This document shows positions 16,801 through 57,538 of a DNA stretch of 64,000 nucleotides, one piece after another. The stretch lies in the NCBI GenBank assembly GCA_021432635.1, contig MU270028.1, forward strand, positions 792,420-856,419. Direction: 5' to 3'. The position numbers and the translations under genes are program-made. The notes under the pieces are model-generated. The model did no database searches. It was not told where the DNA came from and saw only the letters and a program-made list of their open reading frames with translations. Source of the stretch: Thozetella sp. PMI_491 (taxonomy: Eukaryota; Ascomycota; Sordariomycetes; Chaetosphaeriales; Chaetosphaeriaceae). How positions within the stretch are numbered: the first letter of the stretch is position 1; every line of letters begins with the position of its first letter.

Positions 16801-17054
16801 ACGGTGGATGTCAGGTGCGTATGTGGCACACCCAACACTACGACGAAATACAATGACGTCATGCTGTGGCGCCGCAGCCCCTGCTGTGACATCAAGATAA
16901 CGTGCCTACCTAACCATCTCCCCCATAACCTTAGCTGTTCGTTTGATACTTACTTGACAGTTATCGGGTGCCTTCTCTCATTGAACTCGACTACCTACAC
17001 GTTCCGCGAATTATATCTACTTCAGCGTCTCATCGTGATGAAGAGTTGTTGCCC
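13867..17054. other. Gene-poor 3.2 kb interval
   Basis: This holds the 5' flank of the giant chitinase-protease gene on its left side. Two ORFs of 130-145 codons overlap on opposite strands around 15.06-15.83 kb, but they show no domain, coding bias or splice context and are not called. From 16.55 to 16.75 kb the sequence is AT-rich, with short recurring ACAAGC words. Confidence 0.5.
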
Positions 17055-17603: not shown

Positions 17604-18028
17604 AGAGGGCCATTAACGGGCCCAACTAAAGGTCTAGATAGCCAAGGCGACATGGATATAGGCACTAAAAAAATAAAATAAAAACCCCCCGTCTTTCTTG
17701 ACGTGGGCTGCCGCCGGATCTCTGGGTGTGTTCTTAACTCTTTCCTGTCCGATAGCGCCAGATAAGCGAAGACTAGTTCGCCTCCGCCCTTGGCAAATAT
17801 AATGCGATATTGAAGCCTAGCCTAGAGATGCTGGATGAGCGTAAAATGCCATGAGACCTTGGCACCTCAGCCTCAGCTGAATACGCTAACTGCTGTACAG
17901 CCTCTACTAAAGCAGAGCTACAGGCCACCTAGTATATAAACTAGAGCAGCCATTTTCTCAATTCCCAGCCATCTCAGAAATTTGTCACATATGAACTTCC
18001 ATCTTGAACAGCAGCGCTTCTTGGACTA
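17604..18028. promoter_or_regulatory. Intergenic/promoter region of first HET gene
   Basis: About 0.4 kb separates the glycine-zipper gene from the first HET gene. It begins with an A-rich stretch around 17668-17688 containing AATAAA-like words, plausibly the 3' end signal of the upstream gene. It ends with a TATA-like element near 17933. No coding frame is supported. Confidence 0.5.
17933..17940 (+). promoter_or_regulatory. TATA-like element upstream of HET gene
   Basis: TATATAAA lies 89 bp before the ATG at 18029, a usual distance for a fungal core promoter. The call rests on sequence and spacing only. Confidence 0.45.
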
Positions 18029-20104: not shown

Positions 20105-20430
20105 TCTTGTACTCGATTTCGCCGCGCTCTATAGACTGACTAGCCCCGGGTGGTATCACAAATGTATGGTACCTTAAATTGACCAATATAAAGCTGGTGG
20201 GTGAGATCACCTTTGTGTCGTGATTGCTCTAAAAGCAGACAGGCTCAGCCGCAGCAGCCCTGACTTTAGGTCAGGCGCTGGACACTTGGCGGGACTAGCC
20301 AAGGCGAAGTGCCCAACGTGTTGGAGCTATTTAGTATTTGCACCCTTCTGCCCGTGACATGCCGGCCGGTACGTGCCCCGCACCCTAGCTCCCCGCCTGC
20401 ATCTTTGCAAAGCGGCTCTGTCGAGGCAGG
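20105..20430. other. Spacer between two HET genes
   Basis: A 326-bp spacer holds the 3' end of the first HET gene and the promoter of the second. No coding frame or repeat is supported. Confidence 0.5.
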
Positions 20431-22131
20431 ATGTGGCTCATTAACACCTCGACCCTACTGCTCGAACTCTACTATGGCGACGAGATTCCGGCCTACGCCA
20501 TCCTATCTCACACCTGGGGTGTTGACGAAGTGTCCTTTCAGGAATTCTCAAAGACCAGGGAAGATGCGGACGACACACTCGCGAGTAAGGCGGGGTACCA
20601 TAAAATCGTGGCAACATGCGATCAGGCTCGCAGGGATGGGCATCGCTACGCATGGGTGGATACGTGCTGCATCGACAAGACCAGTAGCGCCGAGCTCACT
20701 GAGGCCATCAACTCCATGTTTGGCTGGTACAAGCAGTCGCAGGTCTGTTATGCGCACCTGAGCGACTTCACGCTCGACGCGGCCCATAGCCCGTCCGACG
20801 AGCGCTTCAGCGCAGACCTGAGCCAGTGTCGCTGGTTCACCCGCGGCTGGTGCCTGCAGGAGCTGCTTGCGCCACGACAGCTCCGGTTTTTCGATCGGTA
20901 CTGGCAAGAAATTGGGGAGAAGAATACTCTGAGGGGGCTCATCTCGAAGATCACTGGCATTCCCGAGGCCGTGCTGGTGGTGCCGCCCAAGAGGGAGATC
21001 CAGGACTACCCGATCGCGGCGCGCATCTCGTGGATCGCGAAGCGACGCACCACGCGAATTGAAGATATGTCGTACGGCCTGCTCGGTATTCTCAATGTCA
21101 ACATGCCGATGCTATACGGTGAGGGCCAGGGAGCATTTCTGCGGTTGCAGGAAGAGATCATGCGCAAGTACAATGACCTCTCCGTGTTCGCCTGGACCGA
21201 CCCGGCGACGCCATCGGGATTCATGCCAGTCCTGGCTGTCAGCCCGACGAGTTTTGCCGCAAGCCGCACGGACGACACGCCGTTAGATACGGGTAGCCAC
21301 GTTGGGGAGCTCTTGAGCACGCAGTTTTCGCTCACGAACCAAGGTGTCTTCTTCCCAAGCGCGAAGCTGCATTATCAGCGTGCGGTGCCAGGATATCGTC
21401 ACCAATATCTCTTGTTTCTCAACTACCGAGACCGCCCATTCCGCGGGAAAGGAGACTCGGTGAGATACATTCTCCTGCAAAAAGTCGGGCCAAGCCTCTT
21501 TGTCCGCCTACACGATGACTCAGACCGGCGGGCGGCGTTCCAAAATCAGCTCTGCGGCGCCCCGATATTCGAACCAGTGTGCATCCTCAATCATCTTCCC
21601 GAGTCGACAGTCCGACATCTTGTCAAGTGGGAGCGACATGCCGTGCGCTTGCGCTGGAAGCCATGGGAGAAAACCGCGATGCGATATTGGCACATTCGCG
21701 CGGTGCACCCTGCGGCGAGCTGGGATCTCCCTGCCAACCAGTTTCTCCTCGAGATGTCGTACGAGCGCTTTATGCACATTGAGTTTGTTCCCGGCAACTA
21801 CGAAAGCAACCCGACCTTCGAGTACTTTGTCTTGCTTATCCAGGCCGGCACTGATAAGAGGAGGGGGCGCGACGCCGCGATCGCGTCGGTGCAGATTGCT
21901 AGTGCGGAACTTTGGCAAGGGCTGAACGTAGCTAGATTCGGCTTTAAGGGGAAGGAATCGCTGGCTCTGAAGCATCTGGAGTCTTTGAATGGAGGCGAGC
22001 CGTCCCATCGCATCTCCCTGCTGGGTTACGACATCTCAGTGTCGATGCAGCAGGTGGCCGAGCTGAATGAGGAGCCATATCACCTAGTATATCTTGACTG
22101 GGAGCCAACGCCGTCATTACTATCAGCCTAG
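20431..22131 (+). CDS. HET-domain protein, HET-E/HET-D N-terminal type
   Basis: A single exon of 566 residues opens with MWLINTSTL and YAILSHTWG. This N-terminal signature is typical of HET proteins related to the HET domain of Podospora HET-E/D. YAWVDTCCIDK, the WYKQSQVCYAHLSD block, RGWCLQELLAP and RIEDMSYGLLGILNVNMPMLYGE complete the domain by about residue 240. No NACHT, WD40 or ankyrin region follows; the remaining 320 residues have no domain I recognise. It differs clearly from the HET protein just upstream, so the pair is not a recent duplication. A likely role is in non-self recognition or regulated cell death. Confidence 0.92.
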   Translation: MWLINTSTLLLELYYGDEIPAYAILSHTWGVDEVSFQEFSKTREDADDTLASKAGYHKIVATCDQARRDGHRYAWVDTCCIDKTSSAELTEAINSMFGWYKQSQVCYAHLSDFTLDAAHSPSDERFSADLSQCRWFTRGWCLQELLAPRQLRFFDRYWQEIGEKNTLRGLISKITGIPEAVLVVPPKREIQDYPIAARISWIAKRRTTRIEDMSYGLLGILNVNMPMLYGEGQGAFLRLQEEIMRKYNDLSVFAWTDPATPSGFMPVLAVSPTSFAASRTDDTPLDTGSHVGELLSTQFSLTNQGVFFPSAKLHYQRAVPGYRHQYLLFLNYRDRPFRGKGDSVRYILLQKVGPSLFVRLHDDSDRRAAFQNQLCGAPIFEPVCILNHLPESTVRHLVKWERHAVRLRWKPWEKTAMRYWHIRAVHPAASWDLPANQFLLEMSYERFMHIEFVPGNYESNPTFEYFVLLIQAGTDKRRGRDAAIASVQIASAELWQGLNVARFGFKGKESLALKHLESLNGGEPSHRISLLGYDISVSMQQVAELNEEPYHLVYLDWEPTPSLLSA

Positions 22132-26129: not shown

Positions 26130-28107
26130 ATGCCACTGCGGGACCGGGCCCACGTGGTCTGTACCGAATGCCACGCTCGCAAGGTACGTCGTACCCAAGG
26201 TCCGGCTCCACGGAGATGCTTGCTGGATCTAGCATTCATTCGGCCTCTCAACTAGGTAAAATGTGATCTGCAGACTGCATCCGATAAGGTGTGCAACAAC
26301 TGCCGCCGCTCACAACAGATATGCATGTCCGTCGAGTCACCAATCACCTCAATGCCTTGCAAGCTGTGCTGACGAGGCAATAGTGAGCGCGAAGGAACTC
26401 GGAAGCGGCGACCGTCGGCAAGACATCGAGATGCGGCTCGGAGAAGTCAACCTTGCGAATCCACAAGCCTAGAGCTACCCTCCCAAGACATAGCTCTTCC
26501 CCAGCCCGCCGTCGCGTCGCCTGAGATCCCCCCTACTGTGCCCAAACCACGCGCCAATGGATTCATCAGCCACTGCTCGCTAGCACACTTCGGGGAACAG
26601 GCTGAGTCAGTCGCCTTTGCGTCAAACTCCCATGTTGTCTCGTCGTATCTTCCAGACTCTCTACTCGCGTATGTACAAGCCGAAGATGCACCTCGACCAG
26701 CCCTCTTCCGAGCCTGGGCGGATGCATATACAACGCAGGCATTTCACCACTGCCCAGTTCTAGAGCAAAAGGACCTTTTAGACTCTTCGGCATCTCTTAC
26801 CTTGCAGAAAAGCATATGCATGGTGGGCAATCTGATGAGACACGACCCGAGCGGCCCAAGCCTCGCAGCTGAGCTCTACGGGAAGGTGAAGATGTTGATC
26901 TACATGAACTATGATCAGGAGCCGGTGCAGCTGCTCAAGTCGCTGTGTCTCATTTCCATGTGGAACAAGAAGCCTTCCAATCCAATCAATCTAGACGGGC
27001 CATGGCACTGGATTGGGGTAGCAACCCGGTTGGCGATGCAGATGGGCGTGCAGCGGGAATCAACAATTCGAAGCCGCCCTGATGCGGGCTGTCTTCGCAG
27101 GCTATTCTGGCAACTTCATGTACGTGGCCCGACTATACTGGTGTACAGAATACTAAGTTAAACCGTAGAATAGCGATGCTCTCGAAGTCGCCTGCTGGGG
27201 CCGCCCATCGTTGCTGAGACGCTACGATTTCGACATCAAGCTGCCAACGCTGGCTGACTTCGAGATCCAAAACACCCAGTCTCTATTTTTCATAGAGAGC
27301 ACAAAGCTCTGCACAATTATCGCCCGCATGTCGGAACTCCAAGCAGAAAGACGGCCAGTTCGCGCCGAAGAGCTCACGGACATCAAGGTGGCACTTTGCG
27401 ACTGGGTCAACCATCTGCCCGATGAGCTCCAGCTGTTTGATGCAGCTGGCAGTAGGAATGCCTACTATCGTCCCGCCTCAGAGCTTTCGATCCAATACTT
27501 CGTCGCAGTCATTTTGAGCGAGTTTTTGACCTACAAAAATAACCCAAGGCCTTGCCGAGTCTTGGTCCCGTCGCTCCTGGCAGCATCGTGCGGTGCTAGC
27601 CTCTACGACGAAATCCACTGCCGAGATGAAGCCGTATATCTTCCGCCCATCCACGGGTTTTTCTGTTTGGCCTTCGCACTTCCCCTGATACACTATGTTC
27701 CCCAATCTCCGGTGAAGGAGGCGACTTGCAAAAGGGACCTCGGCGTTATCCGCTCCATCCTGACTGGAATGCGGGATCGGTACGGCGATTGGAAAATGGC
27801 CCATCGAATGATGGACGAACTGGAGAAACACTTGGCGAGAGATGGACGTCCATGGGAAGGGGTTGATAACACACAGATACCGGAGATGTGTTGCGAGGCC
27901 CACAGGTTGTTCCCATTTCCTCCCACGTTCTGCGAGAATATGGACCTGTTGAAGCTGGCAACGGCGCCGGAAGACGAGTTCCTTGCAGCCAACTTTGTCC
28001 AGGTGCAAAATTGGCCGTCAGATGATGCCATCTTTGACTGCACGTGGATGGACCTCTTCGGAGTTGACTTTGGCAACCCAGGCGTAGAGTTTGATACCAG
28101 CAGTTAA
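26130..28107 (+). CDS. Zn2Cys6 transcription factor with fungal-specific domain
   Basis: Four exons (26130-26183, 26256-26326, 26384-27119, 27169-28107) give 599 residues. The binuclear cluster is built across two introns: CTECHARK, then VKCD, then CNNCRRSQQIC, the usual six Cys. A basic stretch (REGTRKRRPS) follows. From about residue 150 the fungal_trans domain (PF04082) appears: GPWHWIGVATRLAMQMG, and the LFWQLHNSDALEVACWGRPS region created by the third splice. The second intron has a weak donor (GTCCGT) but is needed to remove an in-frame stop and restores a good linker. This is a nuclear pathway regulator. It sits between a metallo-beta-lactamase-fold gene and a convergent FAD monooxygenase that it may control. 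Confidence 0.9.
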
Positions 28108-36554: not shown

Positions 36555-38006
36555 TCAAAGGGTATATTTCCAGCTCTCTCTCAACGGAACACCCTCGACA
36601 AGCCAATTTGGTACAATGCCAACTGTCGCAAACTGGCTACGGAACCCCTCGACGGTTCGCTTCTTACAGCTTGGCCCAGGAAGCTTCTTGCAGCCCTTAG
36701 AACCGGACAGACGGTCTTTGATCCATCCCATCCAGAGTGGCTGACTGGCTTGGATCAGGGCGAAGTGGGCTACGCTGCTGTACGCAACAAACTCAAGTTC
36801 TTCGGTACTGTTGGTATTCTCGAGCCATTGACAAGTCTCATCAACAACAGCCTCGAGGTTGTCAAGGTTCAGGGGGCTCCCCGCTGCACCTTCTGCCAGC
36901 ACTAACAAGGGACCCGCAAATTTCCTGCCTCCGACCTCTGTTCTGTTCCGGAACTCTTCGACGGTTGGATCTGCGGTCCAGTTCGATCGAGCAAATTCCT
37001 GAGGTGGGGCCATAAGTCCAAGTTGGATGAAGGTATCTGTGGGCAGACAGCCTTTGACCGCGCCGATACCGTTATGCCAAATATCGTAGGCCGAGTCAGT
37101 CAGCCCACTGAAATTGTAGTGCGGATAAGCTGCCGTAACTCCGGCAATGACCTTGTTCTGGATCCCAAGGACCACGGTAGTCGACCCCGAGGTGTCGTTG
37201 GCCGCGAATTTCGAGAGTGCTTGGGTGATCCATGTGATATCGCGCGCGGCGGGAGCGAAGGCGATTGTGCCTCTGTACCCTGTCACTGGCTGGTGTGCCT
37301 GTCTCTCAGCAAAGGCCCACGCCACGCCGCCGCCCTGTGAGTGACCAGCAACAACGAAGGAGCCATTGGACTGTATTTCGGCGGGGAACGCACTACGTGC
37401 CGCGAGAATGGCGTTTGCGAGATCGTTGGCTTGGGCCGGACTGGCACTGTAAGCATGTGGAATAATCGTCCCGTCAGGCAACGAGCCAACTCCGAGCCCG
37501 GCGTAGTCCGGTGCGATCACGGCTACTCCTTGCATTGCTAGGGCAAAAGGGACCATGAAGTGGTACTGAAGGGCGCGGTAGTTCGAAGGAGCGCAGGTTG
37601 AAAACGTCCCAGTTGTTCCATGGGCCCACGCAACCACGGGAAAGCCGGCATCGGCGTCGGGGAGCATGAACGGCCAAAGAATGTAGGCAGACGCTGGTAG
37701 GATTGTACCGTTGAGGTCGGTCGTGGTGTACATGATGCGAGACATGGTTAAGGGAGATGGTACTTGGTAGTTGGCAAGGTTTGTGGCGTACTCGACAGAA
37801 AGGACGGTTCCAGGTGCCATATTTTGGGAAAAGTTAGATGGGACAGAGTAAAAGGTGGAGTTGGGATCCGCGTGCTGCGAAGCTTCGAACTCGGCACCCA
37901 TACTCGCGAGAGCTTTGCATGTTTGATCGCAAATCACAGGCGACCCTGCGGCCATCACTCCCTGGATTCCCTGCCATAAGGCAGAGAGAAGAACTAGTTT
38001 GTTCAT
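36555..38006 (-). CDS. Secretory lipase, LIP family
   Basis: A single exon of 483 residues starts at the ATG at 38006. A signal peptide (MNKLVLLSALWQGIQGVMAA) precedes the secretory-lipase fold (PF03583). The nucleophile elbow is AGHSQGGG near residue 219, the oxyanion region is WAHGTTG, and APDYAGLG is the typical block between them. The late FVAYSSVAHF supplies the probable catalytic His, and LLVLAEGAAGSPL lies at the position of the acidic residue. Many N-x-S/T sites fit secretion. The family hydrolyses triacylglycerols and related esters outside the cell. The length matches family members of about 450-480 residues. No intron is needed. Confidence 0.93.
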   Translation of the reverse strand: MNKLVLLSALWQGIQGVMAAGSPVICDQTCKALASMGAEFEASQHADPNSTFYSVPSNFSQNMAPGTVLSVEYATNLANYQVPSPLTMSRIMYTTTDLNGTILPASAYILWPFMLPDADAGFPVVAWAHGTTGTFSTCAPSNYRALQYHFMVPFALAMQGVAVIAPDYAGLGVGSLPDGTIIPHAYSASPAQANDLANAILAARSAFPAEIQSNGSFVVAGHSQGGGVAWAFAERQAHQPVTGYRGTIAFAPAARDITWITQALSKFAANDTSGSTTVVLGIQNKVIAGVTAAYPHYNFSGLTDSAYDIWHNGIGAVKGCLPTDTFIQLGLMAPPQEFARSNWTADPTVEEFRNRTEVGGRKFAGPLLVLAEGAAGSPLNLDNLEAVVDETCQWLENTNSTEELEFVAYSSVAHFALIQASQPLWMGWIKDRLSGSKGCKKLPGPSCKKRTVEGFRSQFATVGIVPNWLVEGVPLRESWKYTL

Positions 38007-39999
38007 GTTGTGAAGATGTGAGGCGGCGGGAGGAGCAACGTAGAGTAGATGATGCTGGGGGACAGTCTCGACAAACTCAGTTTGTGTGCCTTCGACGTTG
38101 TTCTTAAGTAATCGAGACCTTTAGCCCCAGGGGCTAGACGAGAACTCTGAGCTTCCTCATTCCGGAAGGCTGTGTGCAGCGTATTGGGGTCTGGGCAGTT
38201 GCCAAGATACAACACTTTACTCACTTGGAGGACCATGGCAGGGGGGGAGCGCGTTTATACAGCGGCGAAGTTCTCAATAAATTCCCTTTGAGGGCATATG
38301 ATCAAACTCGAGTTTGCTCTAGTGAGAGGCACGGCGTCCAGAGGTTGATCTTCAGGGATGAAGCGTATTCGGATCGCGTATTGGAGGCGTACTCGGCTCA
38401 CTCTGCGCATCGCTTGCTGTTCATTTGGGGGCCGGCTTACGTACTTGTAAATACTTGCAAAGGCTAACTAGCTAGCGCTAAGCCTTGCTGCTAAGTTTAC
38501 ACGACTAGCATAAGGATTAGGAATTCCGCAGAAATATATGAGCGCACAGAAGTATTGAAAGAAGTCAGGCGCGAACGGGTAGGACTCAGTTACTTCGACA
38601 CTCAGGGCCGCTGTTGATACTATGGCAAGCAGCTACCAAAAGCCACTCGTGTGCACCCTTCTCTAGCTTGAGCGTTCAGGAAACTAGGTTCCAGGCTTGG
38701 CTAAACTAGGGGCTGCTTGGCGCAGCCGAGTGCCTATTGTGAGTGATGCATAGCTTTGCTTGGCAGATTACTTCGCCAAGCCGGTCATAGCCGCCGGCGG
38801 CTGCACTTAGTGCTACTCGCCACTGTCATCCGACGACCTGTCAGTGAATTTAGAATACTTCAAGGCATCTAGTGCTAGCTACGTATAGGTCGAAGCTTCA
38901 AGTCGACAGATACAATTGGGTTTAGTCAAGGTTGTCCACTAGTTCTCTCAAACGAATGCTCAGTTATGCAGTTACTGGTTAGATGAGAAATTCTCCCATG
39001 GCTCACGAGCACTTGCCAAACGGGCCCAGAGGCCAGGTCACGTTAAGCAACGGATAGAAAGCGTAGGTGCAAAGCTAGCTGTGCTACCTAGTGTGGCTGC
39101 CAGGCAAATCACCCCTGGTGAATGTGGGTAGATAGGATTGTTTCCACGTGTGCATAGGCGGCCCTGATAATAGACGATGCGACTAAGCAGCGCTTCCGTA
39201 AAGAAAGCGGCTGACAATAGTCTCTTCCAGCTCATGCCTTGGTGTTGGATATCAAGGCTTCTCGGGGGTTAAAGGAGGATAGCTAGTGGCGAATTGACGG
39301 CCTTTGCTCCATTCCAATGTCGATCTAGTCTTGCATTTGTGGGGCAAAACTGAGGTGGCTTGAAAGATTGGGCCTTAGTGTGCGCCTCTCCCCCCAATCG
39401 TCGAGCTTTGGGCATACGCGAAACCTGAGCTGATCGGCCTAGGCCTACAATTGCTTGGTTACAGCCCGTGTGTGTGGGTGCACGAAGAGTTGTAGAGAGA
39501 ACTCACTATCTAATCAGTTAGCTCGCAGACAGCGTTTTTGCCTGTTCGCTACTCGGATGCCACCCGGGAAAGGCCGCGCGCTCATTTTTAATGCTCGCAT
39601 CGAGATCTCGATCATCACCCTCCTGTTGAGCCAATATGCTACATTCAGAAGTGACCAAGGATGGAATGTGCCTGAAGGGGCCGTCAGGTCGGGAGACAGA
39701 GCTAAAATAAGAGCAAGGGTTTATCACCATACTCCTAAATGCAGAGAACATCACAAACGCTACAGGACCTAAAGGTGGTTCACCCGAGACTAGAAGCGCC
39801 ACGCCGCAAAGCTAAGGGAAACCTGGAACTATGAAGCCTGGCAGCGGCTGAAAATGCCGGTAAGAGAAGGAATATATAATTACGAAGCTGGTCACGCTCG
39901 GCGTAGCCTTCTTGGGCTTCGGCCAGACTTTTTGTAACTCACTCAGTAGCCGCTCTTTCTATCGTCGCTACGCATTTCCTCTTCTCACTATTACTAGCC
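38007..39999. other. Gene-free 2 kb interval
   Basis: This interval contains the lipase promoter on the left and the promoter of the gene at 40000 on the right. No coding frame, tRNA or terminal-repeat pair could be supported. Frames of 65-105 codons overlap on both strands without coding character. Confidence 0.5.
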
Positions 40000-41085
40000 A
40001 TGTCTACCTGTATAGTACTAGGACCTGACAATGCCTACTTTTTCAACGCTCCCAAGCGTTCGGCGTTTGATCATCTTCCCCAGGATGTGACGGAGTTGAT
40101 GAAGCGGCGGCCCCAGATAAGAGATATCCGAGAGATGGCTCTCGGCCCGGAGGGGTCTTTCCTCGTCGTATACATCGACCACAACGGCATAGACAGGATA
40201 AGTACGTGATCTAATGCAGATGTACCAGTCGCCTCGAATCTGACCACTCGCTGTTACAGTGTACAGAGATCTGCCCGTCGGGCTAAAGGGCTGGCTTATC
40301 AAGAACGGGAGCAGCGTACGCGATCACGCTTCTCTGCAGTGCTCTCTCAGGCCAAACGGCGCATATTTCGCTTTCGACAACAACGGATCGATTCGGGGCA
40401 ATCTGCCAGTTGGGATGGAGAATGCGTGCAAAGAGCGCCTTCTCCCCAGCGGAAACTGGAAGACAGGAGCCTTCCCGGCGAGCGTCACGTTCGGTCCTGA
40501 CGGCCAGTACGTCGTCACAACGACCGGAGGAGGCGGATATTGGAATCTTGGGGGGACCAAACCCGAGCTTAACACCACATTGCTCAATTTGAACAGCCTG
40601 AGGGGCATAGTACGTGCATTACACCAGTCCCCTTGCTTCCTTGCATCCGCATGGCCGTAGTATACCGCCTCGCTCGTACTGACTCGAGGAACATTATGCA
40701 GCTTGTCGTTTTATCTCCATCCAATAGCGATCACTGGATATTGGTCAATTACAACGGTATTGGACGTGTCGACGGCGATGTGGAAGAGGCGGCCATTGCC
40801 GACTTCAACAACTTCGAAGCCGACTTGCAAGAGGTCGTGCGGAACGAACGGATCCAGGTTCAAGCCCACGCTTCTCGCCAGGCACAATCTCGCACGATCA
40901 ATACCGGCATCAAAATCGGGTTCAAGGTGCTCGGCGCTGCGCTAGGCGCTGGGGTTAGTGCTGGCGGTGGGGGCCCGGGCAGCGCCGGCGATGTGAGCTA
41001 TGTGCCGCCGACATATGTGCTCAACACCGGCGGCTCAGACTTCTGGACGCCCATACAGAGTGCGGCCAGCGATCCCATCCAGTGA
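40000..41085 (+). CDS. Hypothetical repeat protein, propeller-like
   Basis: Three exons (40000-40201, 40260-40609, 40702-41085) give 311 residues in one frame. Four related segments of about 45-60 residues recur: ALGPEGSFLVVYIDHNGI, SLRPNGAYFAFDNNGSI, TFGPDGQYVVTTTGGGGYW and SPSNSDHWILVNYNGIGR. Each has a G-P/x-D/N-G turn followed by two strands, as in small beta-propeller or lectin-like proteins. A charged helix (about 215-255) and a Gly/Ala-rich segment (FKVLGAALGAGVSAGGGGPG) follow. There is no signal peptide, and I do not recognise a named family. It lies 0.64 kb upstream of the UstYa-like gene on the same strand; membership in that locus is open. Confidence 0.75.
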
Positions 41086-41721
41086 AACGGGAGTTTTTGA
41101 CGTGATTGCCTTTTTTTTCGTGTTGCTTGCGTTCGATGGAGAGGAAGAACTGCCGTTACACAGACAAACCAAGCCGCAATTAATTGCACTTACTCAGGGG
41201 CTAAACTTAGGTAGGTACCTTAGTTTTATCTCATGACTTATGCCAACCCTTCAGCAGCACCCCTGGCGGCATTTGCTATGCCGCCTAGGCTACGAGAGGG
41301 AGGTACTGTAGAAGTGCCTCTTGCTTGCGTCAGATAGTATAAATATTGCTAGACTATAGTTGGTTATATTGGCCGGACCATGTCGCACTGGTGATCCCAC
41401 GTTTCTAACGGCCTAGGGTATTAGAAAACCCCACACGCTCCAGCCCGCATGTTCTAGTCTTGTACAGGCAGGTGCCAAGACCACCCCTTGGCATTCAGAA
41501 GATAGTCTGTGCAGAATCACCACATCTAGCTGGAAGTGTGGCGATATGGCCAAATCTAGATTATATCCGATGGGCTATGCCGCGTCAACGACTCGTTTTG
41601 ATTAGCAAACTCGCTCGCGCTCGTGGATAACCGAGCCAAGAAGTATTTAACGGATACTCCCGCCCGCACCAGCTAAACGCAACTTCTCGTAGATTCACTT
41701 TGGTCTACAGCCAACTTCATC
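41086..41721. other. Intergenic region
   Basis: About 0.64 kb including the promoter of the UstYa-like gene. A TAGGTAGGTACC word occurs near 41210, a dispersed word that I associate with Sordariomycete genomes. No gene is supported. Confidence 0.45.
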
Positions 41722-42725
41722 ATGGGTTATGACCACGACCTAGAGCTAAAGGACTCATCGGAGCCTCTCATGTTTGAGAGCTCCGGGGATGAGGAAGAAC
41801 AATCTAGGAACCCAGCAGATCGAAGGACCCATAGCTTGGCTAGCCGTTTGCGACATGTGAACCGAGCCATCTTGCTTCCATGGTCATTGCTTATAGCGCT
41901 GTCGGCCGGCGTGCTGGCGCAGTATGCCCGCCAGCGAACTGGTACTACGTCGTGTTCTACGCAGTTGTTATACAGTGAGAATTTTCTGTAGGTCCATACT
42001 TAATTGCACGTCAACTTATTTCATGGTTACAGGTCCCGCCGAGGTAGCTCTTGATTACGAAGTTCGTCAGTTCCATTTAGGCTTTGCGCCCGATACCACT
42101 GAATACCAAGGCGCGCCATCCGATGAAGTCGACCAGAAATGGTCCGACCTCTACGACAGTGAGTATTTGAGTATTAGCTAGAATTAGTCAGTTTAGAAGG
42201 CAAAATTGACACGCAATAGTGGGCAACACACTCCTCGACAAAGATCAAGCAATGTTGATCCCAAACAAAACCATCCTTTTCCCGCACGACCCCAATCACC
42301 GCTATCTCGTAAATCTAGACGTTTTCCACCAACTGCACTGCCTAGTACGTCAATCATTCGAAGTACGGACCCCATGATCGAAAGCTCACCGATAGTAGAA
42401 CCTCATCCGACAAGCCTTCCATCCAGAATATTACAAACCTCACAATCCGGGGCCACACGCGGGGGACGAAGACGGGTTACTTGGGCCATCTCACATCAGC
42501 CACTGTATAGATTCTATTAGGCAGTCTTTGATGTGCAACGCCGACATCAGCGTGATGAACTGGGTGTGGAATGAGAGGAAAGGGCAGAACCAGCCAATAG
42601 GGCAAAACTATCACACTTGCCGACGGTTTGATAAGATACAGGAGTGGGCGCGACAGCATGCGACCTACGAGCCCGTCGACGTATCCTTCAGGGAAATGGA
42701 TGATCCATTGTCTACGGCGGGCTAG
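41722..42725 (+). CDS. UstYa-family (DUF3328) oxidase
   Basis: Four exons (41722-41974, 42033-42158, 42220-42344, 42399-42725) give 276 residues. The order is that of the family: cytosolic N-terminus, one membrane segment (AILLPWSLLIALSAGVLAQ, about 55-76), the SPAEVALDYE block made at the first splice, YQGAPSDEVDQKWSDLYD, then the two HxxHC motifs HQLHC (163-167) and HISHC (200-204), and YHTCRRFDKIQEWA near the end. UstYa proteins catalyse oxidative cyclisation or cross-linking of fungal ribosomal peptides (ustiloxin, asperipin, phomopsin, cyclochlorotine types), probably with a metal held by the HxxHC motifs. A type II single-pass protein facing the secretory lumen fits. The repeat precursor starts 0.65 kb downstream on the same strand. 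Confidence 0.95.
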
Positions 42726-43376
42726 AGAAACTCGTAGATGGCCATACTAGGCCGTATCATGATAGCAAGCACCCGGGCAATTCTGCTACGCGTGCGACCG
42801 ATGTACGCTACTGCATTGTCCCACGGCCACGTGGGTCTTGGTTGTATTTGACGCAGTGTCCCTTGTGTGCGCTAGGACTACAACCCTGCGGGAGGATACC
42901 AGGCTGCTTACACCGAACAATACTGTTGCCCTCCGATTGCACGGCAGTACCATTCTACAGCCAGAGGAGGGTTGCAGCTCGCCACTGTACTGTTTAGCAC
43001 CTCCTCCTCTGGGTCTAGAGAAGGGGCTCCGTTGGCCTTTTGCAAGTTCAATACCAGTGTGGTATAGCACTGCGGCCAACTTCCTTGTTTCAGCCAAGCC
43101 TGCTCCTTCCAAAAAGAGACCTGCGGCCTAGCCGCAATTTTGAGGCCTATGTCGCAACCGACCTTCCATTGTCGTCTATAGGGCTGGGGACTTTTGCCAA
43201 GCGCGTCTGGCCGGCAAGAGGGTGGTGTGCATGGCCGGATCTAGCTGTCAGTTGCCGATGGAACCGGTACCAAGATCTATAAAGGGCGCTGGACAACCGC
43301 GAGCTGTAGAATATACAAGTTATAAAATTGATATATCCAAAATCTACGGTCCTTTTATCATCTACGCCCATCCAAA
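42726..43376. promoter_or_regulatory. Spacer/promoter of the precursor peptide gene
   Basis: A 651-bp spacer between the UstYa-like gene and the precursor gene. It ends with a TATA box and an AT-rich leader. Overlapping frames at 42786-43131 on both strands are not called. Confidence 0.55.
43278..43283 (+). promoter_or_regulatory. TATA box of precursor peptide gene
   Basis: TATAAA lies 99 bp before the ATG at 43377, a good core-promoter distance, and is followed by an AT-rich leader. It suggests the precursor has its own strong promoter rather than being read through from the UstYa gene. Confidence 0.55.
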
Positions 43377-43832
43377 ATGCAGATTAAGGCTTGTCTCCTC
43401 GCCACCCTCGTCGTGGCCGTCTCTGCCTTGCCCCAGCCCGAAGGCAAGCTGGTTAAGGATGCCAACAATGTCGACGTAGTTCTCAAGGCCGAGAACTGGG
43501 GCACCAAGCGCGAGGCGAACAACGTTGATGTCGTTCTCAAGGCTGAGAACTGGGGCACCAAGCGCGAGGCGAACAACGTTGATGTCGTTCTCAAGGCCGA
43601 GAACTGGGGCACCAAGCGCGAGGCGAACAACGTCGATGTGGTGTTGAAGGCCGAGAACTGGGGTACCAAGCGTGAGGCGAACAACGTCGATGTGGTGTTG
43701 AAGGCCGAGAACTGGGGTACCAAGCGTGAGGCGAACAACGTCGATGCCGTCCTCAAGGCCGAGAACTGGGGCATCAAGCGCAGGGCGAACAACGTTGATG
43801 TTGTGTTGAAGGCTGAGAACTGGGGCAACTAG
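43377..43832 (+). CDS. Secreted Kex2-processed repeat precursor, candidate RiPP
   Basis: A single exon of 151 residues. Residues 1-18 form a signal peptide (MQIKACLLATLVVAVSAL) and a short pro-region follows. From residue 29 come seven units with consensus ANNVDVVLKAENWGTKRE: units 1-5 identical in protein, unit 6 with three changes (VDAV, WGIKRR), and unit 7 ending at WGN without a cleavage site. Six Lys-Arg sites are followed by Glu-Ala (unit 6: Arg-Ala), so Kex2 cleavage with Kex1 and Ste13-type trimming would release 14-16-residue peptides with Trp as the only aromatic residue. Architecture and the adjacent UstYa gene match dikaritin or epichloecyclin precursors. Kex2-processed peptides without modification, or a pheromone-like role, are alternatives; the known Cys-containing alpha-pheromone core is absent. 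Confidence 0.9.
   Translation: MQIKACLLATLVVAVSALPQPEGKLVKDANNVDVVLKAENWGTKREANNVDVVLKAENWGTKREANNVDVVLKAENWGTKREANNVDVVLKAENWGTKREANNVDVVLKAENWGTKREANNVDAVLKAENWGIKRRANNVDVVLKAENWGN
43461..43829 (+). repeat. 54-bp tandem repeat encoding the core peptide units
   Basis: Seven units start at 43461, 43515, 43569, 43623, 43677, 43731 and 43785; the last is 45 bp. Units 4 and 5 are identical in DNA, and units 2 and 3 differ at one base. Other pairs differ mostly at synonymous third positions, so the peptide is conserved while the array is still being duplicated or converted. Confidence 0.95.
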
Positions 43833-45619
43833 TTTGACAGCCCAGTTACAACACTCGTCTATTGAGATCGGTTCTAGGAAACTATAGCGGTAGGTCGTAA
43901 GATCTACCCAGCCAAAGGATGAGGTGATGACTGACTTTGCCAGTGAGATGTCAACGGGGAAGACTCGACGTTTCGATAGGATTCCTTCGGACTCGGTTTG
44001 GTGGAGATTTTAACCCGGACAAGATCAAACAATGAGAAGACAGTGCCACTTACTCGCGGCTCTTGACGCAGACAGAAAATCAGAAACCTCAATCTCTTCA
44101 CTGAAACTTTGAGCGACTTAGGTGCTCCCCATTAAGCTTTCAGACCCTAGCAATCCTCTACGAATGACATAGGCTGAGATGATAATATCTTGTGCGAGAT
44201 GACATTGAGTTTGATATGACTGGCTCAAAGAATGCCAAGATACTTCCCCCCATCTGACTATCGGATCCAAAACAAGCAAGTTCAACGACCACTAGACTGA
44301 AAGCCTAAAGGCATTAGGCCCCCCACCCCCTGAAGCAACTATTTACTGCACCTATGCACGTGTCGCTCTTTAAAGAGATCCCCTAGCTGGACATTGCGCA
44401 GATGTAGGGAGAAGACACAACTGAGGGGGGCAAAGAGAATAGTCGACCGAAGTCACTGCTATGGCCTGACCTTGATGGAGGCAGCTTCCCAGGCAAGAGT
44501 GGCAGAGGAGCTCTTCAACAAGGAAGCTTAGAACTCGAGCAGCTTACTCACTCTATCCTTAGTCAATCCCGTAGCATGAGGCTTTCCCCCACGTACGCAC
44601 GTCATTACTAATAGGGATGCTGATAAGTACCGCAAGACCAAGCGGCTAAAGCGCCTCTACCAATTCTCGGTTTTCATCGGCATCTAAGCTGCCCTAACGA
44701 GAGGCCACAACAGGAGGGTGGAATCATGCAAAAACTGTTGCCTCATGGCCCAGCTAATTTAGTTTTAGAGGCGAAGCTAGTGGTTTTGGACCCGTTAAAT
44801 AGAAAAGCTCACAACGCGGCTTGCTCGGAAAAAGAAAACAAAGTGCTAGGTAGTACCACACATCGACCGCAGTGGCTTGTCCTAAAAGAGATTATCACCG
44901 CGACCCAATGAGGCGGGCCCGGTGCCACGCAGCTGTCAAGGCCGGCATTCCAAAGTCACGGGAATTCGGAGTCGCATTGAAGCAGAATATGTCGAATTAG
45001 GTAAACTTTCTTTAAGGCGGCCTAGTTATGCCTAAGGTAAATTTCCCCCACCACCTCGCAGGGATACCCAAGGTTGAGAGTGGAGCTAGGCTGACGGAAA
45101 CTCCCCTAAACCTCGACGATGTGATGTATCACCAAGGCGTGCCAAGCCTTCCCCTCCCACCCCGCTTGCGTTGTCTTGAGCTAGGAGGGCTTTTGCTAAC
45201 CATGGGTGCCATAGGGGCGTCTGGTAAGCGCCATAGCTGGTGGTGATTCGCAGCCAGTCGTTCGCCTCGCGCGGGCATAGTGCCACACGCTTGGGCATTG
45301 GTTGCAATCGTCCCGTCCGTGCCGTGTATCCCGCGCCCGCGCTTGGACTTGCATGTAGTTACAAATGCTTATTCCATCTTATCAGATCATCTGATGGAGA
45401 TTGATATGGCTGCGGTGTCGGAGCTGTGGTTCCAGAAGAATGAGTGAAGACCGGAGGCAGACAGAAGAGGGTCCCTGTGTCCTTGGCATTTAAGGACCGG
45501 GCCGCTTGGCTCTATGCGCTCTTCAGCTTGGCGTACAGGAAGAGAGGCAGATAGCTTTTTCTGCAGTCCGAATACCCAGGCGCGAGACCACCAGCTCTAT
45601 TCCATCCCTTGCCACCAAG
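43833..45619. other. Gene-free 1.8 kb interval
   Basis: No coding region is supported between the precursor gene and the cytochrome b561-like gene. Only short frames without family resemblance occur, and no second precursor or tailoring gene is seen here. Confidence 0.5.
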
Positions 45620-46293
45620 ATGTTGTACCATATGCGCCAAGTCTCTTTGCTGCTCTGCGGTGAGTCGATTCCAAGCTATCTGCCATCTGCGAGCATGTAG
45701 CTGACTGGAAATATCTCGTAGGGGCTACTCTCGTCCTTGCCGACACACCATTCTACCACCGCGTCCGTGTCGCTCATACTGTCTTCGGGCCACTGACCCT
45801 GGCCCTCTTCATGCCCGTCGGGGCGATCGTTATCCGTACCGTCCGCGGCGGCACTTGGTTCCATGCCGGTTGGATGTCCTTCTGCTATTGTCTGCTCATC
45901 ATCGACCTCGGCATGGGCATTTGGATGGCCCTGGACTCGGGACAGTTTGACGAGTTCCACTGCCAGATAGGCATTGTCGTCATCTCATGTCTCATCATAC
46001 AACCCATCACGGGGCTTCTCCACCACTCAATGTTCAAGAAGAAGCAGGCACGGACTGCCTTCTCATATGGCCATATCTGGTGGGGCATCGCACTTATCAC
46101 ACTTGGTATCATTAATGCCGGGCTGGGACTGCAGCTCTCCCACGAGAAGCAGAAGTCGACCTTCATTGTGTATGGCGTTTTGGCTGGCGTGATATGGGCA
46201 GCCTGGATGGTGACATCTACTGTCAGTCACTGGAAAGGCAATAAAGGGAGTGTAACCAGCCCCAAGAGAGAAGAGCTACCTAGCCCTTCCTAA
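45620..46293 (+). CDS. Cytochrome b561-like membrane protein
   Basis: Two exons (45620-45659 and 45722-46293) give 203 residues. A signal-like N-terminus (MLYHMRQVSLLLCGATLVLA) is followed by about five hydrophobic helices. His residues sit in the b561 pattern: VRVAHTVFG, GTWFHAGWMSF, GLLHHSMFKK and SYGHIWWG, which would bind two haems. The tail is short, charged and cytosolic. This is the b561 part of fungal DOMON/b561 (cellobiose dehydrogenase-like) proteins, but no DOMON domain is fused. Such proteins move electrons across membranes from ascorbate or similar donors. It lies 1.8 kb downstream of the candidate RiPP precursor on the same strand; a redox role there is inference only. Confidence 0.85.
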
Positions 46294-48009
46294 GGGACCA
46301 TGGTAATATAGTGTGCGATGGACTCAACTGGCATGCCACCAGGGTGGAGAGGCCAAAGCGTCGGTCGTTTCCATCCTGAATTAATTAGGCCGCTTATCTG
46401 GTTTTGTCACCGCATAGGTGCGATAATACTACACCTCAAGTATGTTACTGTTGTACTTGTTCTTACTCTTGGGAGATTACATGATCGTATGATCCGATAC
46501 CTTGGTGTCGCTCAGCCTGTCATGTCTGTACGTAGCACGTAGCACTCTCTATGATGCGTATTGCGAGCCTGCATCTTCTATTTAAGAACGAGAACCGGCT
46601 CCCGACAAGCAGAGCAGCTTTCCCTCGAAGCAATGAAGGTCTACTTGGCTATATGACTCGTTGTGCGTTGTATGATATACCAGAAATTGCGGCAGGCATA
46701 TGCACGTTCCGCTTTTTAGATGATGCTTGAGGTGTACACTTTTTTCTCAGCGACGCTCTGATCTATTCAGCGTGTATCTCCTCTTTCATATCCATGTATC
46801 AAGTGACTGTAGAAGACCCATATATCCACATGACCCAAGCTACGAGTTTCTATTGAGAACCGGCCTGCTAAGAGCGAAAAATACCGCAAGTGTCGCCTGC
46901 AATTGACCCTCACGGGGCCACTACCTACCCTTGGAACTTGGCGCGAGCCGCCAAAGGCTTGCAAATGCCCCCCACCGGCATCCCTGATTAGGATGGCGGC
47001 GGCCTGTGAGACCCGTTTCTTATGAGGTAGAGCCTCATCTTACACACCATAACAAGAATTAAAAAGAAACACTAGAACACAAAAGAGGTATAGTTGCTTT
47101 AATGTGTATAACTATGCGATGCGGTCCCGCCAGGGGAAGTCTTTGGCATGTTAGGTCTGGTCTATTGCTCCCAATTCTTCGTGTTTTCCAAAAGTTTCCT
47201 TTGAAATACTCTCTACTCGGCTCTCGTAAATGTTATTCAGGCCTTGCCTTGATATTTTATTATTCTTGTCACTTTCCGGCGGTTTCCTGTAGAGCTTCTC
47301 AAGCATGCAGTTGTAATTCTACAACCCCAGCTGGCAAGACTAGAAGCATGGAAAAGATTTCATTATCCTCCAGGAGAATTTTGGGGATCCCTGGCTTCCT
47401 TGTATTCACTAGACGCGTGATACAGAGACTTGTATTCGGGGGCCACATTTTATAGCTTGAGCTATATAACCGTTGTGAGGTCTTTTTCAGAGGCGACTTG
47501 TGCTCTATGCAGATGAGCACTAGATGTCAAAAGACAACGACAATATTCATCAGCCCGGTCTCCTTCATTCTTCTAGTATGGTAGATATTGGTCTTGCACA
47601 TAGTTATACGATGCTTCACTTTGTACCATCCCATAAGCATTTCGTATATAAGCAAAGGACTCGATTTTTGCAACTGTATCATTGGTCTAGCCGGTCCTGT
47701 TAGGATTGTCAGCCACGGGTTTATAGGTATATTTAGGCTGTACACCCTCCGCGACGGAAGTTGTCCCCCGCAATATAGAAATGGATTCGCACTACCGGGA
47801 CTGGTTATCTTCCAGAAGCCAAGCCGCCATGGCTTTACCGGACTTGTGCGGGGATTGTTCATATATCATATAACCCAGCACACGCATGGTTGAACGGTTT
47901 CTACCCAGATCGGTATCGGAAGAGGTATAAAGTTCAGCCGACTTCGGTAGCCAGTTCTGAGTATCCCAGTCGTTAAACACAAACTCTCTATCTTGGCTCA
48001 ATCGACGCG
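46294..48009. other. Gene-free 1.7 kb AT-rich interval
   Basis: The segment from about 46.6 to 47.9 kb is AT-rich with short frames on both strands and no intact gene. It could be an old degraded mobile element, but no transposase motif or terminal repeat could be shown. Confidence 0.45.
47926..47931 (+). promoter_or_regulatory. TATA box of GH30 gene
   Basis: TATAAA lies 84 bp before the ATG at 48010, a normal core-promoter distance. The call rests on sequence and spacing only. Confidence 0.5.
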
Positions 48010-49699
<1,690 letters not shown>

Positions 49700-50491: not shown

Positions 50492-52159
50492 CTACAGTGT
50501 AAGCAGATTGGGAGTTCTTCCACTGCCTTCGAACTCTTTGAGAAGCCTCTTGTTGTCCCGGGTGAGAACCCACTTCATCAGAAAGCAACCCAACATGCTG
50601 GCAATAGAGAACCCAATCATGAGAATCATGGCCTTGATATAACGAGGGGCATCCTGGGAAGAGAAGAAATATGGACTCCATATGTTTCCGAGCTGACCCA
50701 TTAAATTAATAATGGCACCGGCACAGGCTCGCTTCTCTGGAGTCTGGCTCACTGAAGTGGCCGCCCAGCTGTAGACAATGGAGTTGGCAGAGAAACAGCC
50801 CGAGATGTACAGGAAGGATGAGAAATACTGCGCTGGGACGTTGCTGACGCTCACATTGATGATGAACCCGATAGCTGCAACACCCATGGGGATGCTGATG
50901 TGGTAGCCACGCTCGCCAACTTTGTCGCTGGAATAAGCGACCAAGAAGGAAATAATGGCACCGACGAGATATGGAGGTGCCGTGCAGAGAAGAGTGACGG
51001 TTCTGCTTCCCAAGTTAAAGCCGTTGACAATGGTTGGGAAGAAGTTGTTGAAGCCGTAAGCAGTATGGTTTGCGCAAAGAATGAATGCCTAGGTAATAGG
51101 TAATTAAATCAGCTGCAGTTCATATTTGAGGGCTTCTACAAGGTCTTGTCTGTAGACTCACAAATACCCAAACTCGAAAGTCTAGAGCGGCAAGCTTCAA
51201 ACCGTACCAGACAGAGTTATTTGACTCTTGGTTTGAGACCTGGTCGCATGCAATCCGGTCTATGGCAAGCTGGCGTTCCTCTTCTGAGAGCAGCCAAGTA
51301 GCAGCTCCTGTATTTGATGCCGGGAAGTCGGGCAATATGAAGAGACCCGCCAAGCCGAAGGCAAAGCTTGCTCCACCTTCTATCAAAAACAGCCACCGCC
51401 AACCAGCAAGGCCATGTACGCCGCTGAGACCGGAAAATATCCCGGCTGCTAGCAGGCCCGAGAAAGCTGTAGCCAGCACCAGCCCAGAATATAGGACTGC
51501 GATACGAAGAGCAAGCTCTTTCTTCGTGTACCAGCAAGATAAAAGGTAATATACGCCGGGGAAGAATGGGGCTTCCGCAATACCGAGCATAAAACGGACG
51601 GCAATGAGGCCGGAAAAGTTGTGGGTGGCAGCTGTCGACGCAGAAATGCAAGACCAGGTACAAACCCAGACTGATATCCAGAGTGAGGGTCGAACACGCG
51701 TCAGGATCATGTTGCTTGGGAGTTGCATGAGCATGTATCTGGCATAAGACTGCGTTAGCATATAATTACTATTGATTGGCGGGAGTGTGATATTTATCAA
51801 CATACCCAACGTTCAAGATGGACACTGCAATGTTGAAATTGTCACCGATGAGACCTAAGTCCTTCTCAAAGGTATCGAGCTTTGCTTGCCTAGATATCTT
51901 CAGCATAATCGCTCAGCACGAACCGGTGGCCTGCACCAGTGTAAGAAACCTACGCGATATTGTTCCTATCCAAGTAATTGACCAGGTATAGAAGCCAGAC
52001 CATGGGCATGAGGGTGGCGTCTAGCTTTCGAACAAGTTTCCTCTCCCTGGCTAGCGAGGTAACACCGATTGGCGGAGAGCCAGGCATGTCCTCCTTAGCC
52101 ACGGCCATTTCTTTGTCCTCGACATGATCCGTCAGGTCGGGTTTCATTTCGAGTGCCAT
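50492..52159 (-). CDS. MFS permease, DAL5/anion:cation symporter type
   Basis: Four exons from the right (52159-51954, 51889-51806, 51738-51162, 51088-50492) give 487 residues. A cytosolic N-terminus leads to LVRKLDATLMPMVWLLYLVNYLDRNNIA (split here: LDATLMPMVWLLYLV, then NYLDRNNIAQAKL across the first splice), the signature of the fungal ACS/DAL5 permeases. About twelve hydrophobic helices follow, including GYMLMQLPSNMIL, RFMLGIAEAPFFPGVYYLLS and AGWRWLFLIEG. Family members import small organic anions such as allantoate, nicotinate, pantothenate or carboxylated aromatics with protons, at the plasma membrane. It is the first gene of a run of metabolic genes to the right and probably imports the cluster substrate. 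Confidence 0.93.
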
Positions 52160-55176: not shown

Positions 55177-57538
55177 CTAGACTCCCGATCCGCTCACGGC
55201 CTGCCTCGCCGCAGAGACCATCTCCGCTCGCACTCTCAGGACGCGAGCCATCCCGGGCATGATTCCCCACACAGTTGTATCGCCAGTGTCGAGAAGCTCT
55301 GCCCAACGGAGAAGGATTGCGATAGAGAGCGGTGAATTTGCCTGTCCCGATGGATTTGGTTTGGAGGTACTTAGGATTTGCTCTACCATGGTGATTATCC
55401 CGCGTTCGTCCGGCGACTGGTCCTGCGAGGGCACATTCTCCGTCTCCTGCAGCCACTGAGAGAGCAGCAGGGCGCATTCAAAGTACGACAACGCGTGCTG
55501 GACGCTCCACACCCAGAAGCTTGTCCGGGCTATAACCTTGAAGCCCATCTGCGTCGGTATGCGGAGGGCCAGGCAAGCTTGAAGGGCTGCCATGGCCGTC
55601 TCGGCATCGCGCCGCGGACCCACGCACGCATCAAGGCGCGCCGCAATGTGCTCGGAGGAAGACAAGAACGTGAATGCGCGTCGAATCGGAGCATAGTATG
55701 CGACTAGCCGTATGTATGCGAGTCGAAGGATTGCCGTACAGTTGAACAATATCGGCCCGCGAGGATGGTCAGGAGATAGCGAGGCCTCTGGCTCGCTTTC
55801 CCACATCAACTGCCACCTCTTCAGCGCCAGAAGGAACCGCTGCCGTGCTCCCAGCATTGCATCTTCGCATCCCTGGAGCGATCTCTGGAAGAACAAGATC
55901 TTTTGAAGGAGCGATACAATGACCACATGGCAACTGAACATGCCTATTCGGCTAGGAATCGGAAGCTCTGGGTCGAATACGCTCTGGATTATCTCATCGG
56001 CGGAAGAGTATTGCTGCGGCTCGGTTTGGCGGGTCAATTGTATCCACTCATCCTCTGTAGTGGTACACCACAGATTCTCCTGAGACGGCAGGCCGTACTC
56101 GCATTCGAGGGAGAGCGCGGGAGGGAGATCAAATGCGACGGCCATTAGAGTCGTGACAGTGAAGATGCAGCATGTGATCCTAGCCGCACCGTTAAATCTG
56201 CCGGTTGATATCTTTAGCGGAAGGACTCTACCTCTTTAGACTCTCCCGAGCCAACCAGGCAAGCCAGGAGCCGGAAGTGTCATCCACAGTTCCACCAAGC
56301 AACGCCCATTCTCGTCGGACGGCTAGTGCCATTCGGCCCTGAAGTTGTACCGCAAATTGTAGATCGTCTACCTCACCGCTCCACGAAGCGAATGCAGTTA
56401 GGAGCATCATTGCCTGCAGGACGCAGAGGCCAGTGCCTGTTTGGGGCAGCATGTCTGCTGCCAGGTGGAAGAGGTCGATGGCAATTGTGTTCTCCAGGCT
56501 GTAGACGGCGCCGTTGGCACATACCGCTAGGAGTAGGTAAGTGGGTGCATCATTGGGCGACCAGGTAGGCTCATGCAGAAATGGCTGGTGACGGTGGAAG
56601 CTATTGAAGTAGCGTGTTATGAACCCGCATAGAGCGTCCCGTGATGGAAGACTGCACGGTCGCAACTGCAAAGCCTGCTGCTCCAGGAGCCGCCATCGCT
56701 CTTCTGTAAGAGTCAAGTCACCATCATTCAGGGGTGTTATTGCTGTCAAGCTAGCGTCGTCATTGGCGAGTAGGTCAGGAATAGAAGAATGCCTTGAGAG
56801 ATTGGACTGCGCTTGAGGACTCTCTTCGTGATAGCTACGGGACGCGACGGCGTTAAAATCTGCCAATATCTGGCCTGCGTCAGTTATGTCGAACCCGTCC
56901 AACCCAGCGTGAACCAGGGGTTGGGTGGGTTGGGAGCCATCCAGCCAACCAAACGTGTCGGCTAGGGAAGCTCTGTGCAGAGGAGAACCGAGAAAAGCCG
57001 CCGGAAGTACGTCGGGCATGAGCTCAGATGTCCACATGCCGGGGGGATCTGTCATATTGACAGGGAAGATATCTGCAGAGGAGCTAATGTCCTGGTGCAT
57101 GCAACTGAAGTCAGATAAGTTGGAGTAAGAGGGGGCATGACCAAGAACTTGCCTCTGTTGAGGCTATGTTGGCAAGCCTCGGTGCCGTTCTGCTCCTGGA
57201 GAGATGCGCATTCTGCCTTGGTGAGACTTCCGGGCGCCTGGAAAGGCTTGATCTTGTGACCAGCCGAGCAGCCCCGCCAGCAAGGACGTCGTCAGCCTGC
57301 ACACCGCGGCCATGAGCCTTCATGTCGTGCCGCCGAAGCAGGTCCTGACGGGAGAAAGCTTGACTGCATAGTCCGCATCGATAAGGCTTCTCCTTGGTGT
57401 CTCGAAGCAGATTAACGTTAGTGGGAGGCTCTAGCCGGGGAGGTTACGCTACTCACGAGTTCTCTCGTGACGGACGAGGTGCTCGGCACGGGCGAATTCC
57501 CGCATGCAACGAGGGCAGCGATGAACAGGAGGAGACAT
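55177..57538 (-). CDS. Transcription factor: two C2H2 zinc fingers plus fungal-specific domain
   Basis: Four exons from the right (57538-57457, 57400-57153, 57091-56232, 56179-55177) give 730 residues. Finger one is CPRCMREFARAEHLVRH, the linker HERTHTKEKPY is rebuilt at the first splice, and finger two is CGLCSQAFSRQDLLRRH. An acidic and Ser/Pro-rich middle follows. The fungal_trans domain runs from about 240, with RYFNSFHRHQPFLHEPTW, and after the third splice MAVAFDLPPALSLECEYGLP. This C2H2 plus fungal_trans build is a well-known regulator class in filamentous fungi. The second intron is best read as GC-AG (donor AG/GCAAGT, 61 bp), because no GT donor of reasonable length keeps frame. It is likely the local regulator of the surrounding metabolic genes. 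Confidence 0.9.

Follow-up and report, generated by a model that had tools for sequence, protein, structure and literature searches.

A UstYa-family gene and a gene for a secreted, Kex2-processed repeat precursor lie next to each other in a 64,000-nucleotide stretch of the Thozetella sp. PMI_491 genome, referred to here as the window, and this neighbouring pair is confirmed. To judge by sequence, the two genes would probably constitute a minimal two-gene pathway for a UstYa-modified peptide oxidised at or near Trp. The sequence-only reading of this DNA had proposed a candidate new RiPP locus, which stands as regards the repeat unit, for which no known match was found, but not as regards the kind of locus: on the evidence of predictions from sequence, such gene pairs are already known and common, with well over a thousand published cases (1758 in Umemura 2020). 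It is the product, if any, that would be new. Among the literature matches listed, none links Thozetella with RiPP, UstYa or DUF3328.

The UstYa-family (DUF3328, PF11807) gene is intact. Specifically, it spans positions 41722-42725 of the + strand, with the ATG at 41722 and four exons (41722-41974, 42033-42158, 42220-42344 and 42399-42725) separated by three short introns, and it encodes 276 aa with zero internal stops. The protein matches PF11807 with an E of 1.1e-54 (Pfam) and carries a single N-terminal membrane segment, judged by eye. The first HxxHC motif, HQLHC (42327-42341, +), is located in exon 3 and is invariant across 11 aligned rows, one of which is the public model of the window's own gene; in the second, HISHC (42492-42506, +), located in exon 4, these rows all agree on H, H and C. 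In an alignment of 64 rows, the His and Cys positions of the two motifs are at least 90% conserved. Both HxxHC motifs of the UstYa protein, the enzyme that defines the dikaritin class, are present, and the UstYa-family protein with HQLHC and HISHC described from the sequence alone is borne out. Nine more six-frame HxxHC matches are scattered across the window, and the whole-genome PF11807 search returned no second UstYa piece within the window's range. The gene matches the Thozetella sp. PMI_491 protein GQ53DRAFT_744732 (P0001) at 98% over 71% of the query; this public model (195 aa) starts within intron 1 (41975-42032) and lacks the first exon and the membrane segment. A search for solved structures returned none for UstYa or for the precursor at E<=1.

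The precursor gene (43377-43832, +) is a single exon of 151 aa, whose ATG lies 651 nt downstream of the UstYa stop on the same strand. A TATAAA sequence with a putative role lies about 95 nt before this ATG (43278-43283, +), and a second one is found at 43321. The protein begins MQIKACLLATLVVAVSALPQPEGKLVKD, with a signal peptide of 17 aa, MQIKACLLATLVVAVSA (43377-43427, +), recognised by eye and with a putative cleavage site, and continues with seven 18-residue units of the form (A)NNVDVVLKAENWG (43461-43829, +) containing six Lys-Arg (KR) sites. These Kex2 sites, all on the + strand, map to 43506-43511, 43560-43565, 43614-43619, 43668-43673 and 43722-43727, each followed by EA, and to 43776-43781, followed by RA. 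Six of the seven units are exact copies of ANNVDVVLKAENWG; unit 6, with a V to A change, reads ANNVDAVLKAENWG-I-KR-RA, unit 1 is preceded by VK-DA instead of KR, and unit 7 ends in WGN-stop. The earlier description of a secreted, same-strand precursor with seven units and six Lys-Arg sites thus holds with small corrections, namely that unit 6 differs, that unit 1 has no KR before it and that unit 7 ends in WGN-stop. The unit had also been described as free of Tyr and Phe, and indeed Trp is its sole aromatic residue; in addition, it contains a hydrophobic VDVVL stretch. A secreted protein with similar repeats split by dibasic sites is what characterises a Kex2-processed repeat protein (KEP), and the precursor has these features, the signal peptide being judged by eye.

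Among the precursor units, pS is 0.436 and pN is 0.040 (pN/pS 0.09), in a comparison that took in unit 7 over 13 codons only. All the amino-acid changes counted fall in unit 6, and 9 of the 14 variable nucleotide sites of the array, a 54-nt repeat scoring 525 in Tandem Repeats Finder, are third codon positions. On account of these third-position changes and of the low pN/pS, the unit looks, at the sequence level, as if kept by selection on the peptide, beyond recent duplication alone. The Pfam matches of the precursor (best DBF4_BRCT, E 4.6e-5) all fall below the curated cut-offs and were taken as chance matches of the repeats.

Each of the six KR sites is followed by an X-Ala dipeptide, in five cases EA and in one RA, and DA stands before unit 1; the Ala is retained even where X varies. 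In the sections drawn on here, Le Marquer et al. 2019 (PMC6339444) describe X-Ala after a Kex2 site as the Ste13 signature, report that ustiloxin/phomopsin-type and epichloecyclin precursors lack it, and regard KEPs carrying it as good peptide-hormone candidates. The likeness to these known Kex2-repeat precursors is less close than the sequence-only reading claimed, since that reading had missed the X-Ala. X-Ala may instead form part of an enzyme recognition sequence, as the shifting place of Glu-Ala in the units of similar layout described below could suggest. The genome contains one P_proprotein match (Kex2-type) and three DPPIV_N matches (Ste13/DPP-type).

In Sordariomycetes, the alpha pheromone has the core pattern WC..GQ.C. 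A canonical alpha-pheromone precursor with units WCQIRGQSCW is found near C21:364921-365463, while the window unit shows the X-A/X-P dipeptide after the Kex2 site and not the WC..GQ.C core; a stricter pheromone pattern matched only one, unrelated, place. The strongest DPPIV_N match, C21:350068-351189, is separated from this pheromone gene by about 14 kb, and it is possible that the peptide and its trimming protease are linked there.

The surroundings of the pair were scanned with Pfam over 39 selected ORF stretches of the window, over 38121-41720 and 43833-47976 in all six frames, stops being written as X, and over the spacer 42726-43376 in a single frame. The scan identified a secretory-lipase-like gene (36558-38120, -), a GH30 C-terminal domain (48899-49696), an MFS transporter (50495-51812, -) and fungal transcription-factor domains (26373-27158 and 56231-57163). 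No dikaritin-type tailoring gene, and no methyltransferase, was found in the scanned stretches, which cover the window in part, and the six frames of the two flanking intervals gave nothing beyond one sub-threshold match. Of 80 tyrosinase pieces in the whole genome none is on C14, the window's contig, in agreement with the earlier statement that the locus lacks a tyrosinase; at 17054-17080, a match to a rough tyrosinase motif had no Pfam support and was discarded. A cytochrome P450 C-terminal piece (5387-6010, +; E 4.7e-34) is located about 36 kb upstream of the locus and, in our view, is not part of it. Other features of the window are two adjoining HET-domain (heterokaryon incompatibility) ORFs (18008-20101 and 20389-22128) and, next to a LysM-domain ORF (12448-13881, -), a GH18 chitinase (11507-12388, -) that also gives a weak chitin-binding match.

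The search for relatives of the precursor gave none at E<=1e-3 among 8000 scored protein candidates, chosen as those sharing most words with it at 0.55-1.75 times its length, which upholds the claim that the unit matches no known core peptide. Likewise, its own genome holds no second copy of the precursor, and a search within this one fungal genome did not find the window repeat away from a UstYa gene. The best own match to the window UstYa outside its gene (C7:258092-258466, 42%) adjoins another array, L043, whose unit layout, EA..PDILYNNPAGWG-KR, is similar to that of the window unit. The L043 precursor (L043:5364-5735, that is C7:260540-260911) has five SEAQSPDILYNNPAGWG-KR units and lies between two UstYa genes. 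A two-sequence profile built from the window and L043 precursors matched 24 proteins at E<=10; in 22 of them the units are of the DILYNN or DILYF type, as in L043, and not the window unit, the other two being animal proteins by name. L043 and proteins P0076-P0095, P0097 and P0098, from Fusarium, Cordyceps, Beauveria, Zarea, Torrubiella and further sources, form a DILYNN..GWG family, one protein of which is labelled mating factor alpha. The window unit and this KEP family have in common the layout EA....D[VI]...WG-KR, whereas Tyr is present in the DILYNN family only; Glu-Ala stands one residue further in at the L043 units (KR-S-EA) and directly after KR in the relative P0081 (KR-EA).

Shuffle tests of the window unit against the DILYNN family, carried out on 16 of 27 units, gave p values of 7e-4 (global) and 0.025-0.035 (local) with all residues free, of 0.01-0.05 and 0.2-0.25 with WG fixed, and of 0.03-0.13 and 0.2-0.27 with both EA and WG fixed. 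A further test gave a global p of 0.01 and a local p not below 0.05, and a unit HMM lent no support to the relation. With tests so mixed, homology of the window unit to this family, resting on a few residues of sequence, is a lead. As for the enzyme, the window UstYa falls in an 11-member clade (FastTree support 0.98) with proteins from Cercophora, Podospora, Grosmannia, Colletotrichum, Sporothrix, Rhynchosporium, Apodospora, Tothia and one metagenome; related UstYa genes are those of Cercophora scortea, Grosmannia clavigera, Sporothrix and Colletotrichum jinshuiense. From its own genome, the tree took in a sample of paralogues without the short ones, and two rows were removed on grounds of coverage. 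Recent co-duplication of the UstYa gene and the precursor gene finds no support in this tree, where the window UstYa lies among proteins from other fungi, at 2.28 substitutions per site from the closest own paralogue sampled.

The PF11807 search of the genome, in which 150 of 203 candidates were scored, yielded at least 149 matched pieces, and 117 of these span profile positions 180-203, where a single match per gene is expected. Going by these profile matches, this 72-Mb genome would therefore hold at least about 117 UstYa genes, some of them possibly broken; by comparison, the totals of Umemura, in the part of the survey used here (9399 DUF3328 in 1461 strains; PMC7329392), correspond by division to about 6.4 per strain, far below the count for Thozetella sp. 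PMI_491. Merging gave 120 UstYa places in 98 regions, often clustered (for example on contigs C36, C20, C5 and C30). When ten-kb UstYa regions were scanned for at least three similar segments between dibasic sites, another Kex2-repeat array appeared in 6 of the 20 regions read (L034, L035, L036, L039, L042 and L043); these were the first 20 of the 98 in contig order (C1-C7), with two pairs overlapping, and are thus not a random draw. As controls, we used codon shuffles, other window pieces and a Poisson bound: the same scan found no array in 100 codon-shuffled 10-kb pieces (the 20 regions shuffled five times) or in six other 10-kb pieces of the window, partly overlapping, and with 300 arrays placed at random, at least six would fall in 200 kb with P 2e-4. 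Only L036 and L043 have their start Met, signal peptide and units within one open frame; L034 has its start and first units in a common frame, followed by a short run of N, and in L035, L039 and L042 a signal-peptide-like start lies 148-172 nt upstream, so that an intron is needed to join it to the units. The units in L034, L035, L036, L039 and L042 are WSDDFGAADGPASGYGQDK, AGIDYIKEG (13 copies), DVSVNTPGDRTGIYWGKVDSE, YCGEDELK and AVPSFGGHKNGYEGES-like. Tyr occurs in the units of all six other arrays, and is absent from the window unit. Overall, the sequence-only reading is supported in part; the enrichment of pairs of UstYa genes and repeat arrays has been published and recurs here.

We infer from these features the processing steps, the action of UstYa on the peptide and its chemistry. 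The precursor would enter the secretory pathway, where Kex2 would cut after each Lys-Arg and a carboxypeptidase would remove the Lys-Arg. A Ste13-type dipeptidase would then probably trim X-Ala, leaving mostly NNVDVVLKAENWGT, of 14 aa, or of 16 aa should EA be retained. The calculated linear MH+ is 1558.786 for this 14-aa peptide, 1758.866 for EANNVDVVLKAENWGT (16 aa, EA kept), 1571.781 for unit 7, NNVDVVLKAENWGN, and 1542.791 for unit 6. Finally, the membrane-anchored UstYa would oxidise the peptide, most plausibly at the single Trp, by cross-linking, hydroxylation or similar; cross-linking at Trp is itself a conjecture. Such a pathway would be a two-gene one, using common secretory proteases. 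Asperigimycin is a Trp-containing fungal RiPP.

The published survey of Umemura 2020 (PMC7329392), in the parts used here, provides a frame for weighing this reading. It reports a DUF3328 gene within 15 genes of 1758 out of 7878 KEPs (22%, and 30% in Ascomycota), with a DUF3328 count that peaks at the adjacent gene; Tyr, not Trp, is enriched in DUF3328-associated units (65.6% v 38.2% for Tyr, 20.5% v 24.5% for Trp), and of 76 KEPs akin to the Ste13-type KEPs of basidiomycetes, 17 have a DUF3328 gene nearby. In favour of a UstYa-modified peptide are this published pairing, the intact UstYa with both HxxHC motifs, the signal peptide (by eye), the seven units with six KR and the pN/pS of 0.09, and, within this genome, the Kex2-repeat arrays in 6 of the 20 UstYa regions read, the P_proprotein and DPPIV_N matches and the similar unit layout of L043 beside the best own UstYa match; against it are the lack of Tyr in the unit, the X-Ala after six KR and the lack of any other dikaritin tailoring gene close by in the stretches scanned. 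Among the 8000 candidates scored, a protein search at E<=1e-3 gave no sign that the pair is conserved between species. Chance would place a UstYa gene next to a precursor in perhaps about 1% of cases, assuming about 20,000 genes and at least about 117 UstYa genes; we hold the modified-peptide reading probable because this figure is set against the observed pairing rate, and have marked it down for the missing Tyr and the Ste13 signature. That the peptide is both trimmed in the pheromone manner by Ste13 and oxidised by UstYa at Trp, a modified peptide hormone and not a dikaritin toxin, is a tentative possibility.

As the main rival reading, the precursor could encode an unmodified secreted peptide hormone or effector, a Ste13-trimmed KEP, with the UstYa acting on another substrate or being adjacent by chance. 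The X-Ala after every KR and the DA before unit 1 speak for this, given that the portion of Le Marquer et al. used here takes this signature as a hormone marker missing from known cyclic-peptide KEPs, as do the lack of Tyr and the very large number of UstYa genes in the genome; however, only 3 of 227 + 216 mating-factor/pheromone KEPs have a DUF3328 gene nearby in the survey data used here (PMC7329392), so pheromone-type KEPs avoid such neighbours, unlike the 17 of 76 mentioned above, and DUF3328 genes close to KEPs are most often found right next to them. We regard this explanation as rather unlikely. Secreted, nearly identical repeats that include the hydrophobic stretch VDVVL recall instead a structural or surface-active peptide like Rep1, neither a signal nor a modified metabolite, and Rep1 peptides form amyloid-like fibrils according to the part of PMC9769878 consulted; yet Rep1 has no Ste13 signature in the corresponding part of PMC6339444, and the UstYa neighbour would be left unexplained, so we regard this as improbable. 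It is very improbable that the genes are decaying or mispredicted and form no functional pair: the truncated public UstYa model and the lack of any such precursor protein among those returned from databases would fit, but the frames are open, the splice sites usable and the catalytic motifs invariant, and pN/pS is 0.09. Least credible is an alpha-type mating pheromone of this fungus, a role suggested by the Kex2 plus X-Ala layout and rejected because of the canonical gene on C21; the window unit also lacks Cys and the WC..GQ.C core.

The UstYa-modified peptide, which we prefer, would make this pair a compact two-gene case for testing UstYa function without Tyr and without a tyrosinase, and would allow UstYa chemistry and pheromone-type Ste13 trimming to be tested on one peptide. 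More broadly, this genome has about 117 or more UstYa genes, of which several adjoin repeat precursors, and may be a rich source of ribosomal peptides from fungi.

In the part of PMC12048977 used here, the DUF3328/UstYa protein is the enzyme that defines dikaritins, and an older five-gene definition adds a tyrosinase and several DUF3328 genes, and also takes a methyltransferase, transporter or peptidase in the cluster; asperipin-2a has a single DUF3328 gene (PMC7329392, in the part used). The window shows repeated cores between Kex2 sites and a signal peptide (by eye); the contig has no tyrosinase and the window no second UstYa, the core has no Tyr (or Phe, as in victorin) as cross-link site, and the precursor is not free of the Ste13 signature. 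As regards the other genes of the older definition, the stretches scanned, which cover part of the window, hold the MFS transporter at 50495-51812 and no methyltransferase. The locus has in common with the dikaritins ustiloxin, phomopsin and asperipin-2a a secreted Kex2-repeat precursor near a UstYa with two HxxHC motifs, and differs from them in its Tyr-less unit, in the missing contig tyrosinase and second UstYa, and in its X-Ala. Epichloecyclin GigA is likewise a secreted, probably Kex2-processed repeat precursor but, unlike the window precursor, gives Tyr-Ile cyclised nonapeptides and has no Ste13 signature, according to the parts of PMC9233826 and PMC6339444 consulted. With ascomycete alpha-pheromone precursors and Ste13-type KEPs, the window precursor shares KR followed by X-Ala at every junction, whereas it lacks the WC..GQ.C core and has a UstYa adjacent, the pheromone gene being elsewhere. 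Finally, while the window unit was not among the protein candidates scored, its gene arrangement is that of the DUF3328-associated KEPs of Umemura 2020.
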